32,671 nt of DNA, from contig JAFWEL010000036.1 in NCBI GenBank assembly GCA_017512905.1, positions 1-32,671 on the forward strand. The letters run 5' to 3'. Made by a program: the position numbers and the translations under genes. Below the pieces are notes generated by a model. It did no database searches and was not told the DNA's origin. It worked only from the letters and a program-made list of their open reading frames with translations. This DNA comes from Clostridia bacterium (GTDB taxonomy: Bacteria; Bacillota; Clostridia; Christensenellales; Aristaeellaceae). Below, one piece after another: positions 6,391 through 12,181 of the stretch. Each line of letters opens with the position of its first letter. Position 1 is the first letter of the stretch.

Positions 6391-8775
6391 TCAATACTCT
6401 TCTCTCAGGCATTCCAGCCATTCGTCCCGGCTGATTTGCCCCGTCGCATATCGGTTGGTAGCTTCCTGAATTGCCACAACAGATTCCGGCGTCATGTTCA
6501 CGCAGAAGGTGAAATCCCCTACCTGCTCCCTAAAGCGACGGATGGCGTCGGCCATATATGCGCCGCCCCAAGCGGATGCGAAATCCTCCGGATCGGTGGC
6601 AAAGTCAAAGTAAACGGCTTCAGGGCTACCATCGTAAGCCGTGTGATTGACCCGCGCCAACGTCTTTAGGTATTCCTGGGCGGTGGCCCGGCTGGTGCTG
6701 GCGGCGGGGACGAATACAAAGGTCCCGCTAGCCCGGCTGAGCTTTGGTGCGTCCGGACGGATGCGCAGTGTACAGCGGATGACCACCGCGCTTTCATGCG
6801 GGTTGTAGTCCGGGTAGAACAGCATAGCCCGGTGTTCCTTCCCATCAATTGCGGTATCCCTGCCATGATAGCGCAGGGCGTCCCAGTCCACGCCTTCAAG
6901 GGCTTCGAGGCACGCGGTGAATTCCGGCTTCGAGAAGTCCACCGCCTCGCCGAGGGCCTTCCAGCATCGGGCGTAGGCGTCGGCCATGCTCAGGAGCGTA
7001 TACGCTTCAAACGCCTCCGCCACGCTCTGTTCAGTTCTGTCGAACACATCAAACTCGATCACATAATCGCGGGCGGCTGCGCTGTGGGAATACTCACCCA
7101 GCCACCGGATATACTCAGGCCAGGTACCGGGGGCGTCCTCAAAGCTGCCCCGGATATCGTTCCAGTTCTCCGCCGGGAACGCCACGTCGGGATAGGCGTA
7201 TACGTCCAGGGGAATAGCGGCGGGTTGCCCATTGACCGAGAGAAAGGCTTGCAGGCCCTCGGGCAGCTTCTCCCATTCGGCGCGCAGCTCCGGGTCGGTC
7301 AGCGGCGCGATGAGCCCCGCGTCGCGCACCCGCTCAAAGCCATCCTGCTCCAGCGCTACCACATCTCCCGCGGCGCTGCCCGACAGCATCCGATCCGAGT
7401 AACGCCCGATGTCCTCCAGGTTTTTGCCGGGATCGCTGACGATGGCAACGTCGGGATGCTCGGCAATGAAGGTCTGGTTGGCATAGTCATTCCAACCGTC
7501 GCCGTCCACGACCAGCTCATTCACCTCCCCGGGCGAGGTCGTCAGGTCGAACACATGCACCGAATCCCCGTGAAGCACGGCGTAGGTCGCGTCGTCCAGC
7601 ATCAGCCCCTGCCCGCTCAGTTCACCGCAGACCGCAATACGCGTGGCCGTGTCCGAGTTCATGTTCTGCGCCATCCAGACGCTGCCGTCCAGCACATACA
7701 ACAGCGCATCGTCCGCTTCTCTCAGAGCAAAGCTGTTCGGGCGCATGGCGCCGCTGTAGGGAATCTCGCACAGCGGTTTCAGCGTGGAACCCTCCGTGCG
7801 GTAAACGCGGGCCACCGCCGCATGGTCGTCATACGCCGCCAGGTAAGCGGCGTCCCCGCCGCCAAACAGCTCTGGCGACCAGTCGGTGGGAACACCGGCG
7901 AGGTCGAACTCCGACAGCACACCGTCTGCCAGGTCCCAGCTGAAAAGCCGCACGTTTGCCGGTGCGAAGCCGAAGCCCTCCAGCTCCGACTCCACGGCGT
8001 ATTCCGCAGTGAAATAGAGCTTGCCGCCAGTCAGCACCGTGTCCTGGATGCCATAGCTGTTGAGCTTCCGGCCCTCGGGATCGAGGATCGCTGCCGCCGG
8101 GACCTCGGCCAGCGCCGCCACGTCGAAAGTGCCGCCTTCATCCAGCGTCACGCGCCCGAGGCCGTAGGCCAAGGGCACATAATCAAGGTTGAAGGACGAA
8201 CTGGAATTGCCATGACCGTCCGCATAGATGACATAGATCGCGTCTGAGCCTGCTACCACCGCATTGATGGAGCGTTCCCCTGCATCCCGCCACTTGTAAA
8301 CCGTGGGCTCGACATTTGTGCCCTCGTATACGCTGATACTCTCGTTGTCCTCCACCGCGATCAGCTTTCCATCCATCACCGCGCCGTCGGTCAGGTAGCT
8401 GTGTACCTCGCCGAAGAAGCTGTCCGAGTCGGTCACGCGGCTGTACAACGCGCCCGCCGCCCACCGGCGCGCGGCAGGAGACGCCGCCAATGCAATGCTG
8501 GCGCTGATGGACAGTACAGCAATAAACGCGGCGGCAATCTGAGCCGTTTTGGGAACCGTGTGGCGGAAGGCCAGCCAGCGCCGTCTGCGGTTCACTTTTC
8601 GGCGAATCCCGGGGGAAGCCATCGGGTATTCAGCATTTTTCCTGATATCTGTAACCATCCTTTTCATTTCCATTTCCTCCATTCTCTGAAAGGCCGCGCA
8701 ATACAGCGCAGCTTCCAGAGCCTCGGAAACGGATGCCCTGTCATGTTCCGGAATGAAAGCGTCATGTCGTTTCAT
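6391..8775 (-). CDS. transmembrane anti-sigma/sensor with beta-propeller-like and solute-binding-like extracellular domains
   Basis: The 794-residue product has a cytoplasmic N-terminus of ~75 residues rich in Glu, Met and Arg, a transmembrane segment at about 78-99, then ~690 extracellular residues. Residues ~130-415 show repeating short beta segments (Leu-Tyr-Phe, Tyr-Val-Leu-Asp-Gly, Val-Tyr-Arg-Thr) typical of a beta-propeller. From ~420 the pattern changes to that of an ABC family 1 solute-binding protein: Phe-Ile-Ala-Glu-His-Pro-Asp-Val-Ala-Ile-Val, Gly-Asp-Val-Val-Ala-Leu, Ala-Ala-Ile-Pro-Leu-Asp-Val, and a helical end with Tyr-Ala-Thr-Gly-Gln-Ile-Ser-Arg-Asp-Glu-Trp. The ATG overlaps the sigma gene stop as ATGA, with AGGAGG upstream, so it is the partner of that sigma factor. 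Function as an anti-sigma that senses a bound extracellular ligand is inferred from architecture and pairing. Confidence 0.7.
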   Translation of the reverse strand: MKRHDAFIPEHDRASVSEALEAALYCAAFQRMEEMEMKRMVTDIRKNAEYPMASPGIRRKVNRRRRWLAFRHTVPKTAQIAAAFIAVLSISASIALAASPAARRWAAGALYSRVTDSDSFFGEVHSYLTDGAVMDGKLIAVEDNESISVYEGTNVEPTVYKWRDAGERSINAVVAGSDAIYVIYADGHGNSSSSFNLDYVPLAYGLGRVTLDEGGTFDVAALAEVPAAAILDPEGRKLNSYGIQDTVLTGGKLYFTAEYAVESELEGFGFAPANVRLFSWDLADGVLSEFDLAGVPTDWSPELFGGGDAAYLAAYDDHAAVARVYRTEGSTLKPLCEIPYSGAMRPNSFALREADDALLYVLDGSVWMAQNMNSDTATRIAVCGELSGQGLMLDDATYAVLHGDSVHVFDLTTSPGEVNELVVDGDGWNDYANQTFIAEHPDVAIVSDPGKNLEDIGRYSDRMLSGSAAGDVVALEQDGFERVRDAGLIAPLTDPELRAEWEKLPEGLQAFLSVNGQPAAIPLDVYAYPDVAFPAENWNDIRGSFEDAPGTWPEYIRWLGEYSHSAAARDYVIEFDVFDRTEQSVAEAFEAYTLLSMADAYARCWKALGEAVDFSKPEFTACLEALEGVDWDALRYHGRDTAIDGKEHRAMLFYPDYNPHESAVVIRCTLRIRPDAPKLSRASGTFVFVPAASTSRATAQEYLKTLARVNHTAYDGSPEAVYFDFATDPEDFASAWGGAYMADAIRRFREQVGDFTFCVNMTPESVVAIQEATNRYATGQISRDEWLECLREEY

Positions 8776-9578: not shown

Positions 9579-9953
9579 ATGACACAGGAACAGAAGACGC
9601 GCATTGCCCAGCTGCGCCAGCAGAACGTCGGCTATGCGTCCATAGCCAGGGAGCTCTCCCTGTCGATCAACACGGTGAAGGCGTTTTGCCGAAGAAATGA
9701 TCTCGCCGGGACGCGCAATCCAGCTGTGGAAACGATCGAAACTTTATCCGGGGAATCGCCCGACATCGACTTGCCTTCCTGCCTGAACAGAGGTAATAGT
9801 ACTACTACCGTCAGGACGGGAAGCTCTGAAAACACAGGGCTTTCCGGGGCTCAGCCCTTCTGGGACGTTTCCGTTTCCTACGCTGATACGCAGGATGAGA
9901 ACGCCATCTCAGATGTGCTGAGCATGCTGATGAATGCAAATTATGGGAGGTGA
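9579..9953 (+). CDS. small helix-turn-helix protein coupled to a serine recombinase
   Basis: A 124-residue protein. Residues ~3-40 form a resolvase-type or sigma-region-4-like helix-turn-helix: Lys-Thr-Arg-Ile-Ala-Gln-Leu-Arg-Gln-Gln, Tyr-Ala-Ser-Ile-Ala-Arg-Glu-Leu-Ser-Leu-Ser, then Thr-Val-Lys-Ala-Phe-Cys-Arg-Arg-Asn-Asp-Leu. The rest is low in structure and rich in Ser, Thr and Gly. A GAAGGAAG site precedes the ATG. Its stop lies 5 bases before the recombinase ATG, and the recombinase ribosome site (GGGAGGTGA) sits in its last codons, so the two are translated as a unit. Small HTH genes often precede clostridial large serine recombinases; roles as regulator or directionality factor are inference. 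Confidence 0.75.
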   Translation: MTQEQKTRIAQLRQQNVGYASIARELSLSINTVKAFCRRNDLAGTRNPAVETIETLSGESPDIDLPSCLNRGNSTTTVRTGSSENTGLSGAQPFWDVSVSYADTQDENAISDVLSMLMNANYGR

Positions 9954-9958
9954 GCCCC

Positions 9959-11536
9959 ATGAAGCGAGTCATATGCCTCTACCGCGTTTCGACCATCGGG
10001 CAGGTGGATCATGACGACATCCCCATGCAGAAGCTGGCATGCCGTGAGTACGCGGCGACTCACCCGGACTGGGAGATCGTCGATGAGATTTCCGAAAAGG
10101 GCGTCTCCGGCTACAAGGTCAGTACCAATGCCCGTGACGCAATCGTGGAGATCAAGAAGCGGGCCATCACGCACCAGTTTGACGTACTGCTCGTTTTCAT
10201 GTTTGACCGTCTGGGCAGGCGCGACGACGAGACACCCTTTGTGGTGCAGTGGTTTGTACAGCAGGGCATCGAGGTATGGAGCACCCGCGAAGGGGAACAA
10301 CGCTTCGACACCCATGTTGACAAGCTACTGAACTACATCCGGTTCTGGCAGGCTTCCGGCGAAAGCGAAAAGACTGCCATCCGCGTTCGCACTAAGCACT
10401 CTCAGATGATCCAGGAAGGCCAGTGGCGCGGTGGTCTGGTGCCTTATGGTTACCGGCTGGAATTCCAGGGCCGCACAAATAAGAAGAACAAGCCCGTCCG
10501 GGATCTGATGATCGACGAGGAAGAAGGCAAAGTCGTCAAGGAGATTTTCCATCTCCTGACCGAAGAGGGCTACGGCACCAATAGGGTCGCTCAGTACCTG
10601 AACGACCGGGGCATCAAAACCAAGCGCGGAACCACGCTGTGGCGCGGCACCAGCATCCGGGCGCTGATCGACAATCCGGTCTACATCGGCGTCCTCAAAT
10701 TCGGGGATGAACGCTCCGAGCCCTTTGAACACCTTCGACTCATCGATGACGCCACCTACGAACGCTGCCTGCAGACTGTCAAGGCGCGTGCTACGAAGAC
10801 CTGCGGTGATGACCTCGTGGTGCCTCTCCGCACAGACGCCAGGGGGCTGCTCACCGGGATATTGTACTGCGGGGAGTGTGGCAACCGGTTATGCTACTGC
10901 CACAACACCACAAAGCGTAAGCTGGCCGATGGAACAATTCGCGTCTATGAGCGTGACTTGTACCGCTGCTACCGGAAAATCTCATCGCGGAATACCTGCG
11001 CCGGACAGAGCTCCTATGACATGCAGCCCATCAACGACGCGGTCGAAGTTCAGGTCAGGAGTTTCCTGGGCAAGCTTGCGTCCAAGCCCAGAGAGGAGCT
11101 GCTCCAGATGGCCAGCGCCCGGAACACAGAGATGTACAAGGTCGCGCTGAAGCAGGCGGAGAAGGAATATGAAAACGCTCAAAAGCAGGTGACGGCCCTG
11201 GAAGAGGAAGCGGTCAAGGCGCTGACCGGGGAGAGCGCATTGGACTTGAGCGTCATCAACGGCATGATCATCAAGCACCGCGCCAAGCGGGACGCGGCGG
11301 CCCAGACCATCGAGGAAGCCCGTGCCCGGCTGGAGCAGGAACAGATGAGCCAGAAGGAGACGCAGGCCCAGATCGACGAGATGCTTTCCTGGGCAGACTG
11401 CTACGACAAGGCCAACATCGAGACCCGCCACATGATCATTGCCCGGATCATCGAAAAGGTTGAGGTTCGGGCCAACCGAAAAATCCATATCAAATTCAGG
11501 ATTTCGCTTGACCAGTTCCTCGGGAAGAGTGCCTGA
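9959..11536 (+). CDS. large serine recombinase (resolvase/invertase N-domain, recombinase domain, zinc ribbon, coiled coil)
   Basis: A 525-residue site-specific recombinase. The N-terminal catalytic domain (about 1-145) has Tyr-Arg-Val-Ser-Thr with Ser11 as the likely nucleophile, then Gly-Val-Ser-Gly-Tyr and Val-Phe-Met-Phe-Asp-Arg-Leu-Gly-Arg-Arg-Asp-Asp-Glu-Thr. The recombinase DNA-binding domain (~160-280) contains Val-Pro-Tyr-Gly-Tyr-Arg and Thr-Lys-Arg-Gly-Thr-Thr-Leu-Trp. A zinc beta-ribbon starts at Cys304-x2-Cys307 with a second Cys pair near 345-360. A coiled coil covers ~395-480. All parts are present and of normal length, so it is probably active. I use the ATG at 9959, with GGGAGGTGA 5-8 bases ahead; a GTG at 9950 is the alternative. 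It is followed by a strong terminator and the tRNA-Val locus, a plausible target. Confidence 0.92.
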   Translation: MKRVICLYRVSTIGQVDHDDIPMQKLACREYAATHPDWEIVDEISEKGVSGYKVSTNARDAIVEIKKRAITHQFDVLLVFMFDRLGRRDDETPFVVQWFVQQGIEVWSTREGEQRFDTHVDKLLNYIRFWQASGESEKTAIRVRTKHSQMIQEGQWRGGLVPYGYRLEFQGRTNKKNKPVRDLMIDEEEGKVVKEIFHLLTEEGYGTNRVAQYLNDRGIKTKRGTTLWRGTSIRALIDNPVYIGVLKFGDERSEPFEHLRLIDDATYERCLQTVKARATKTCGDDLVVPLRTDARGLLTGILYCGECGNRLCYCHNTTKRKLADGTIRVYERDLYRCYRKISSRNTCAGQSSYDMQPINDAVEVQVRSFLGKLASKPREELLQMASARNTEMYKVALKQAEKEYENAQKQVTALEEEAVKALTGESALDLSVINGMIIKHRAKRDAAAQTIEEARARLEQEQMSQKETQAQIDEMLSWADCYDKANIETRHMIIARIIEKVEVRANRKIHIKFRISLDQFLGKSA

Positions 11537-11551
11537 GCAAGAAACTGAATC

Positions 11552-11587
11552 GCCTGTGGGGAAGGACAACCCCGCAGGCTTTTTTTG
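11552..11587 (+). terminator. rho-independent terminator of the recombinase operon
   Basis: GCCTGTGGGG and CCCCGCAGGC pair around an 8-base loop (11552-11579, one G-T pair) and are followed by seven T. It starts 16 bases after the recombinase stop codon. Confidence 0.92.
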
Positions 11588-11615
11588 TTTGCCAGCGAAC
11601 CGTTCACACCTACAA
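11588..11615 (+). repeat. 28-bp direct repeat, left copy (flanks the tRNA-Val locus)
   Basis: This stretch, from TTTGCCAGCGAAC to CTACAA, matches 12039-12066 at 25 of 28 positions in the same orientation. The copies are 451 bp apart and enclose the motif array, the tRNA terminator and the tRNA. It includes one variant of the GTTCACATC motif. It may be an attachment-site duplication. Confidence 0.7.
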
Positions 11616-11806
11616 TCGGCATTTCGTTCACATCTAACACCCGAGCCGTTCACATCTAATCCGCCGAGCTGTTCACATCGACCGCCCGAACTGTTCACAT
11701 CGACGGCGATGTGAACGATTTGTCAGACAACAAAGCTACCCGAAAAATGTACCTGCACACCCCTGATTCTTATAGTTCGTGAATTTGGCTATAAATCGAT
11801 GTGAAC
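11602..11806 (+). repeat. iteron-like array of GTTCACATC motifs between recombinase and tRNA-Val
   Basis: The nine-base motif GTTCACATC occurs at 11626, 11648, 11671 and 11693 (start positions), with variant GTTCACACC at 11602, giving direct spacings of 24, 22, 23 and 22 bases. Neighbouring bases are also partly conserved, giving units of about 22 bp. Inverted copies start at 11708 and 11798. The copies at 11693 and 11708 form a perfect 10-bp inverted repeat (11693-11702, 11707-11716) around four bases. The same nine bases occur in the anticodon arm of the adjacent tRNA-Val(CAC) (11933-11941) and again at 12053. Function as recombinase or accessory-protein binding sites is inference. Confidence 0.8.
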
Positions 11807-11851: not shown

Positions 11852-11896
11852 AGGAAAAAGAAAACCCTCGAAAACGCAGTGTTTTCAAGGGTTTTT
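11852..11896 (-). terminator. rho-independent terminator of tRNA-Val
   Basis: On the minus strand a long stem (AAAACCCTTGAAAAC against GTTTTCGAGGGTTTT, one mismatch) with a five-base loop is followed by CTTTTTCC. It begins at the tRNA 3' end, so it ends the tRNA transcript. Confidence 0.88.
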
Positions 11897-11971
11897 GGTG
11901 GTCGCAACAGGACTCGAACCTGTGACCCCATCGATGTGAACGATGTGCTCTACCAACTGAGCCATGCGACC
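11896..11971 (-). tRNA. tRNA-Val (anticodon CAC), CCA encoded
   Basis: The minus strand folds into a full cloverleaf: acceptor GGTCGCA/TGCGACC, D stem GCTC/GAGC with AGTTGGTA loop, anticodon stem CATCG/CGATG with loop TTCACAT (anticodon CAC at positions 34-36), five-base variable loop, and T stem ACAGG/CCTGT with loop TTCGAGT. A discriminator A and genomic CCA follow, so the mature end is at 11896. It reads GUG valine codons. Its anticodon arm contains the nine-base motif of the adjacent array. Its presumed native promoter lies beyond a second 5' tRNA fragment at 12096-12117. Confidence 0.96.
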
Positions 11972-12038
11972 TTATCCGAACATTTCTGGCGTTTTGAGGA
12001 AATTCGTCCGGGCTTTTCCTCGTGGTCAACGTGAACGG

Positions 12039-12066
12039 TTTGCCAGCGAACTGTTCACATCTACGA
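12039..12066 (+). repeat. 28-bp direct repeat, right copy
   Basis: Same sequence family as 11588-11615 (25 of 28 positions). It includes one exact GTTCACATC at 12053-12061. It lies between the intact tRNA and the tRNA 5' fragment. Confidence 0.7.
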
Positions 12067-12095
12067 CCTTAGTTGGATAATCCTACCAGTACGTA

Positions 12096-12117
12096 CTACC
12101 AACTGAGCCATGCGACC
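12096..12117 (-). pseudogene. 5' fragment of tRNA-Val (22 nt)
   Basis: The minus strand from 12117 to 12096 is identical to the first 22 bases of the tRNA-Val at 11971, through the acceptor strand and D loop, and then diverges before the second half of the D stem. It sits directly downstream of a perfect sigma-A promoter. This is the layout left when DNA inserts into a tRNA gene and brings a replacement copy, or when such an insertion is later deleted. Confidence 0.8.
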
Positions 12118-12152: not shown

Positions 12153-12181
12153 ATTATATCACCTCTGACGGGGGTTGTCAA
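12153..12181 (-). promoter_or_regulatory. strong sigma-A promoter of the tRNA-Val locus
   Basis: Reading leftward, TTGACA (12176-12181) and TATAAT (12153-12158) are both perfect consensus boxes with a 17-base spacer. Transcription would begin near 12146 and run through the tRNA fragment to the intact tRNA-Val. Confidence 0.88.

Follow-up and report, generated by a model that had tools for sequence, protein, structure and literature searches.

Within the window (i.e., the whole stretch of 32,671 nt analysed here), a gene for a large serine recombinase is followed by an array of short repeats and by a complete tRNA-Val(CAC) gene. Taken as a whole, this arrangement is rather likely to combine (i) an integrative element with a tRNA D-arm as its insertion target; and (ii) a recombination-control array bound by a small partner protein with a helix-turn-helix (HTH). 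Judging from the sequences, the element appears to bring a complete replacement tRNA and to recreate its own target, the gene being replaced at each insertion, and the array is probably a docking region for recombination proteins near the element end.

The array and its surroundings

The nine-base motif GTTCACATC occurs in eight exact copies in the window (both strands), six of them inside 205 bp. Among 500 random sequences from an order-1 Markov model, the number of exact copies (both strands) had a mean of 0.27 and a maximum of 3, and no stretch of 205 bp contained more than one. With up to one mismatch there are 16 matches, against a mean of 6.3 and a maximum of 13 in 100 shuffles, and this is the sole 9-mer of the window with at least five occurrences within 205 bp. 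The motif starts, on the forward strand, at 11602 (one mismatch), 11626, 11648, 11671 and 11693, i.e., at a spacing of 24, 22, 23 and 22 bp; inverted copies follow at 11708 and 11798. The last direct and the first inverted copy form a perfect 10-bp inverted repeat around 4 bp (GTTCACATCG-ACGG-CGATGTGAAC). Between the end of the recombinase reading frame (11536) and the first unit lie 65 bp, and the anticodon arm of the tRNA-Val(CAC) contains the nine bases of the array. An earlier note on this DNA had described the five-fold repeat (one variant, 22-24 bp spacing) with its inverted copies, the perfect inverted repeat, the nine bases common to array and tRNA, and the distance to the recombinase, and a recount confirmed all of them. 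Two further features were absent from that note: (i) the eighth exact copy, at 12053, lies within an inverted dyad; and (ii) the initial 22 nt of the tRNA-Val are repeated between the tRNA and a promoter that matches the consensus at 12 of 12 positions (Table 1).

Table 1. Features around the array, with their positions in the window, strand and basis or remark.
Feature	Position	Strand	Basis or remark
Small partner protein, 124 aa	9579..9953	+	N-terminal helix-turn-helix; C-terminal motif also present in the HTH-less partners that accompany sister recombinases
Large serine recombinase, 528 aa from GTG (525 aa from ATG at 9959)	9950..11536	+	Pfam domains
Terminator-like hairpin 3' of the recombinase	11552..11579	+	
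Array of five direct units (the first a variant), 22-24 bp apart	11602..11701	-	Family consensus GATGTGAAC(G/A)(G/A)N-T-T-G-C-Y-N-G
Perfect 10-bp inverted repeat around 4 bp (last direct and first inverted motif)	11693..11716	none	
Additional inverted motif	11798..11806	+	
Terminator-like hairpin of the tRNA, convergent with that of the recombinase	11861..11895	-	
Complete tRNA-Val(CAC), interpreted as a replacement tRNA borne by the element and as regenerated attB	11896..11971	-	Arrangement in relatives
Predicted AG crossover dinucleotide in the D-arm (tRNA nt 21-22)	11950..11951	-	Common part of the two kinds of junction in relatives
P' end of the inserted element (attP half-site and spacer, 124 bp)	11972..12095	-	
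Inverted dyad of two array-type arms around TG, within the P' segment	12028..12061	none	
Leftover 5' piece (22 nt, with the AG core as its last bases) of a previously hit tRNA; B.AG of attL	12096..12117	-	
Promoter TTGACA-17-TATAAT, reading through the scar into the tRNA	12153..12181	-	12/12 consensus matches

The array lies between two convergent terminator-like hairpins and, in consequence, it probably acts as DNA, not as RNA. In the long P' segments (positions 11972-12027 of the window, and loci L037, L038, L147 and L148) a hairpin-like CCGRAC...GTTCGG is located just before the tRNA, which could be a tRNA-leader processing signal or a boundary signal.

Direct repeats of 22-23 bp with one invariant core are iteron-like. 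The array shares this form, and its units might be iterons for the replication of an excised circle, the match with the tRNA being a coincidence. We regard this as improbable: the shared 9-mer is found in the target tRNA itself, which by our own arithmetic (76-bp gene, both strands) has a chance of about 5e-4, and no replication initiator gene was noticed beside the array on a plain reading of the neighbouring reading frames. The ends of IS21- or Tn7-like transposons were considered as well, and were set aside, no transposase having been noticed beside the array by the same plain reading.

Insertion into the D-arm and renewal of the target

In relatives, tRNA 5' pieces are found upstream, each followed by a P' segment, while tRNA 3' pieces are found downstream, behind foreign sequence that ends in AG. 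Altogether, 32 distinct upstream junctions (B.AG.P') and 29 distinct downstream junctions (P.AG.B') were collected, and the part common to them is AG. The upstream set was gathered by its TAG ending, and what follows the AG there is variable; in the downstream set the AG is present in 28 of 29, and at least two of the 29 (L224, L225) look like intact tRNA variants. All the collected junctions, which were sought via tRNA pieces, fall in tRNA D-arms. The reverse complement of P and P' have a mean best identity of 0.615 when centred on the AG (offset 0), versus 0.37-0.43 (maximum 0.432) at offsets of 1-4 either way and a mean of 0.398 (maximum 0.422) in 200 shuffles of the halves; the element half-sites are thus inverted repeats centred exactly on AG. 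We infer strongly, from these sequence comparisons, that the elements of this recombinase group insert into a tRNA D-arm, here that of tRNA-Val(CAC), at a 2-bp AG core (nt 21-22). The suggestion that this recombinase family targets the adjacent tRNA gains support from AG-centred junctions in the tRNA-Val D-arm of relatives. Regarding the window element, a search for its own P.AG.B' end or a tRNA 3' piece found neither, and in four genomes (G086, G108, G146 and G228) the intact tRNA copy alone was found at up to one mismatch. The many matched attP halves could serve as new integration tools.

Under the proposed mechanism, the recombinase and its partner would be parts of an integrative element whose target is the tRNA-Val(CAC) D-arm, with crossover at AG. 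A complete tRNA-Val would be carried 28-147 bp (most often 31) inside the P' end of the element; the host promoter could go on transcribing an intact tRNA, and the attB would be formed anew. Later elements could then insert again, in a nested way, leaving tRNA 5' pieces upstream and 3' pieces downstream.

Several arrangements in relatives bear on these steps. The P' segments upstream of tRNA-Val(CAC) are most often 31 bp long (in stacked units of 53 bp), others ranging from 28 to 147 bp. On one contig (L039/L064, G263:C45; also L142) a P.AG.P' junction has a complete tRNA-Val 32 bp further on. A complete element of about 4.4 kb (L237, 4880-9256) consists of B.AG.P', the complete tRNA, cargo, a recombinase 42% identical and P.AG.B', with ends of the same class. 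Its cargo includes two reading frames, AlbA-like and HNH-type by eye, which are possibly a defence module. The genome of the window has a second tRNA-Val(CAC) island, on contigs C88 and C116, whose ends seem, by our own reading, to be of one class, the left one decayed. This island (L027, 5290-8929 on C88, repeated in C116) contains glycosyltransferase- and GtrA-like frames, by eye, and no recombinase; since both contigs are identical over 15.9 kb, they represent either one locus assembled twice or a real duplication.

Up to six stacked tRNA 5' pieces are seen before one tRNA (L147). Because each element supplies a new tRNA with a D-arm site, the upstream stacks are best read as a record of nested insertion, and the stacked scars (often of 53 bp) point strongly to successive insertions, as far as sequence can tell. 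Homologous recombination, by loss or duplication of units, could distort the count of nested insertions. In any case, the serial integration that the earlier note had envisaged is borne out by the stacked scars beside the array and by the P.AG.P' junction. Replacement of the whole tRNA would mean a self-renewing landing site and a readable insertion history.

Eight loci of the genus (G146, G108, G086, G266, G270, G234, G282 and G182) have the upstream chromosomal flank in common. The recombinase adjoins the tRNA in three of them (G146, G108, G086); at E 1e-60 it is absent from the genomes of G266, G270 and G234, which carry other inserts there, and from those of G282 and G182, where the contig stops 0.4 and 1.3 kb past the tRNA, respectively. 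As syntenic loci occur with and without the recombinase, a resident, integron-like recombinase was rejected. In L126 (977-1136) a tRNA-Val 3' copy is seemingly interrupted by about 100 bp of GC-rich, repeat-like sequence, and L121, L125 and L129 contain similar pieces.

Outside tRNA-Val, many family recombinases of 31-45% identity adjoin tRNA-Ala(CGC) pieces. All 22 distinct tRNA-Ala 3' copies have an A before the shared G, at the same D-arm AG position; 19 are orphan and three intact by eye (L235 4100, L242 980, L246 3706). Moreover, a tRNA 3' piece lies at most 190 bp after the recombinase in 8 of the 12 distant loci read, with pieces of tRNA-Lys (L044, L045, L050, L054, L055, L057) and tRNA-Asn (L049, L056) identified by eye, and none within that distance in L046, L047, L051 and L053. 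With Ala, Lys and Asn pieces beside distant recombinases, D-arm targeting seems to be a property of the wider group.

Distribution of the array and its candidate binder

Strict arrays are found in 21 of the 300 family genomes, and a reversed-pattern control gave 0. The consensus of 47 distinct units is GATGTGAAC-(G/A)(G/A)N-T-T-G-C-Y-N-G, in which 9 of the 23 positions are fixed by construction, the profile having been built from exact GATGTGAAC in tandem pairs. The earlier note had proposed a multi-site attachment region. On the unit strand, the core position holds CT, the right-sense crossover dinucleotide, in 0 of the 47 units and AG, the opposite sense, in 5; hence, the array is not a row of attachment sites. 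Serial insertion is real, next to the array, but that it takes place in the array itself is scarcely credible: the collected junctions, sought by tRNA pieces, lie in tRNA D-arms, and none of them within an array.

The array could also be a functionless relic of repeated slippage or of past insertions. Its size varies widely among loci, and some arrays persist without a recombinase; nevertheless, unit positions 13, 15 and 19 are conserved beyond the 9-mer (37, 40 and 39 of 47) while other positions drift, neighbouring units (36 distinct pairs, up to 60 bp apart) are spaced by 22 or 23 bp in 29 cases, and the distances to the tRNA core are kept in 8 of 19 arrays, all of which makes a relic very improbable.

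Array and recombinase tend to occur together. The 21 array genomes and the 29 genomes with a recombinase of at least 50% identity share 11 of the 300 (Fisher P 1.8e-7, the genome of the window included), an overlap that supports the claim that the array belongs with the recombinase; with the 18 genomes that have recombinases of 31-46% alone, they share 1 (P 0.74), G271 (recombinase 49%) being left out of both lists. Among 19 loci with a recombinase identity of at least 58%, 12 (L029-L039, L059) have at least one unit scoring 14 or more beyond the tRNA's own copy, a single recognisable unit being left in L036, L037, L038 and, outside the recombinase gene, L059. In L040, L041, L043 and L048 the flank is present with no array in reach, and the recombinase frames are truncated or interrupted; in L042, L060 and L061 the sequence ends at the recombinase. 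The strict pattern was found 0 times in the genomes or records of 25 of the 39 recombinase loci, including L036, L040-L043, L048, L060 and L061. More distant recombinases (31-49%) have no tandem array, and 14 of the more distant loci (36-49%) show neither tandem array nor tRNA-Val, with single matches of 11-15 bits; single units scoring above 20 occur within 3 kb of L236, L238 and L244, outside the array clade. Arrays without an intact recombinase look like remnants in L136 (beside a tRNA 3' remnant) and L138 (beside a 14-aa recombinase remnant), others being near contig ends. Thus, both kinds of relatives that the earlier note had named as counterexamples, i.e., recombinase without array and array without recombinase, do occur, but mostly look like decay.

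Two observations are added here. In L030 (1873-2103, G228) the recombinase frame is broken near its 3' end, while array and tRNA are intact. In L235 (about 7505-7585) other short repeats, CAAACGCA/CATTGACC, are located about 20 bp apart in both orientations behind an orphan tRNA-Ala 3' piece, and they are perhaps an analogue of the Val array; as three-copy 8-mers also occur in L232, L233, L236, L240 and L250, they may be due to chance.

The small gene before the recombinase encodes, in the array clade, an HTH plus a C-terminal motif. Pfam HTH_38 is recognised at E 0.01 in 13 of 14 partner homologues, the window's partner scoring 21.8 bits, below the cut-off of 27, and the C-terminal motif matches that of HTH-less partners (hhalign probability 91.7, E 7.8e-7). 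Such HTH-less partners were read in the sister loci L044-L047, L057, L204, L205, L231, L234-L236, L239, L240, L243 and L245, where the small gene was readable; no partner was recognised for the remaining sister recombinases. In the recombinase tree, HTH partners fall in one supported clade (100/99), in 16 of 18 rows and 11 of 12 distinct sequences, the twelfth coming with no upstream DNA, and tandem arrays beside a recombinase are seen only in this clade. The partners of L205 and L204 both lack the HTH. L205, a sister locus ending at a tRNA-Val 3' piece, shows no units, nor does the available 1.2 kb of L204; L237 ends at the tRNA-Val target with no array and no partner recognised. From L205 and L237 we conclude that tRNA-Val can be targeted without the array, which goes along with the HTH; this weighs most in favour of the partner as the binder. 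However, recombinase clade, HTH and array coincide, so that phylogeny cannot tell the binder apart. Binding by the small HTH protein, one of the options in the earlier note, fits the joint distribution of array and HTH. Searches of the PDB with the partner gave no useful match; it is a candidate directionality factor.

Alternatively, the recombinase itself may bind the array, whose units would be attB half-sites used as enhancer or decoy, the HTH partner being incidental. The 22-23-bp units resemble one attB half-site, sharing at least 9 bp with its B' half, and their lack of a right-sense crossover dinucleotide suits such a role. Nevertheless, the tRNA agrees only weakly with the unit profile outside the 9-mer (P 0.024, or 0.14 with one tRNA variant), the dyad is, by our own count, 2 bp shorter between its motifs than two B' arms around a 2-bp core, and the array is missing from the sisters L205 and L237, which end at the same target. 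Covariation between unit and tRNA variants is suggestive at most. On balance, we consider binding by the recombinase alone unlikely, yet more than a formality.

The position of the array was compared as well. Behind 61 distinct tRNA-Val 3' copies with 420 bp available, at least one unit is found in 24 and at least two in 19; in 8 of these 19, units lie 188-191, 211-213 and 234-236 bp from the tRNA AG, although P' ranges in length between 31 and 136 bp. Array placement may hence be tied to the renewed target no less than to the attP of the element itself, though common descent could explain the constant distances instead. The units of the window lie 249, 271, 294, 316 and 340 bp from the AG, outside this common comb, so a fixed array-to-core distance was rejected as a rule. 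In the window type, the array comes after the element's tRNA and terminator; in L142, L152 and L156 it is on the P side with no tRNA between, the nearest outward-reading unit being 155-157 bp from the core (own count). In the loci read, the recombinase is transcribed towards the array wherever both are in one locus.

The best reading of these data is that of a recombination-control array bound by the partner and/or the recombinase. The array would be a cluster of half-site-like protein-binding units without a right-sense crossover dinucleotide; the HTH partner would bind it, and its conserved C-terminal motif would gather the recombinase at the element end, so as to control synapsis or the direction of the reaction, be it integration, excision or the use of the renewed tRNA. 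We infer the binder and the effect of the array weakly. More tentatively still, and with less than even confidence, the HTH-fused partner might bind both an arm-type array and the target tRNA, the array controlling integration, excision or target re-use, with insertions countable via whole tRNAs. Tyrosine integrases and small invertases are known for accessory-site control; were the array to work as proposed, large serine recombinases would have it too, and the gain of the HTH would mark its origin.

Comparison with known systems

The recombinase of the window has Pfam Resolvase, Recombinase and zinc-ribbon domains, all above cut-off. This domain set, the 2-bp core common to attL and attR, and attP arms inverted around the core assign it to the large serine recombinases, of which an inverted-repeat attP around a 2-bp core is the usual pattern. 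Its best sequence match in the PDB is the YokA-YotN entry; we take YokA of SPbeta to be SprA, and its directionality factor YotN to be SprB. SPbeta YokA/YotN elements are alike in domain order, 2-bp core and inverted-repeat attP; the present element differs in (i) its tRNA D-arm target; (ii) the complete replacement tRNA; (iii) the end array; and (iv) the HTH-bearing partner. We know of no array of such kind in SPbeta-type serine integrase elements.

SCC elements likewise use a serine recombinase and accrete at one site, but the present target is a tRNA gene. An SCC cassette chromosome (CcrA/B/C recombinase) was ruled out, since the NCBIfam CcrC and CcrA scores (56.5 and 33.9 bits) are far below the curated cut-offs of 900 and 700. 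Integrons, with successive inserts at one fixed site, are a little like the present system, which differs in its serine enzyme, its nested whole elements and its non-resident recombinase; a true integron (tyrosine integrase IntI, attI/attC) was discarded because the linked enzyme is a serine recombinase with an attP inverted around a 2-bp core.

The closest parallel in layout is with Islander-type tRNA islands, which also restore the tRNA, leave a tRNA fragment behind and occur in tandem; an intact tRNA with a displaced tRNA fragment is present in L027 (the window's own genome, C88), L132 and L237. Islander-type islands use tyrosine integrases (PMC4383910, 2014), whereas the recombinase linked here is a serine one. 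Insertion of serine recombinases into tRNA genes has been described as rare, the cases given being mycobacterial AICEs in tRNA-Leu and phiRSM in the 3' end of tRNA-Ser (PMC3218068, 2011); between them, both accounts treat tRNA genes as rare or not known targets of serine integrases (PMC4383910, PMC3218068). A literature search, judged by titles and the beginnings of abstracts, found no description of the present system. The combination of D-arm target, whole replacement tRNA and end array looks like a new variation on known elements and, while serine integrases are described as rarely using tRNA genes, one recombinase group here would use the D-arm of several different tRNAs.
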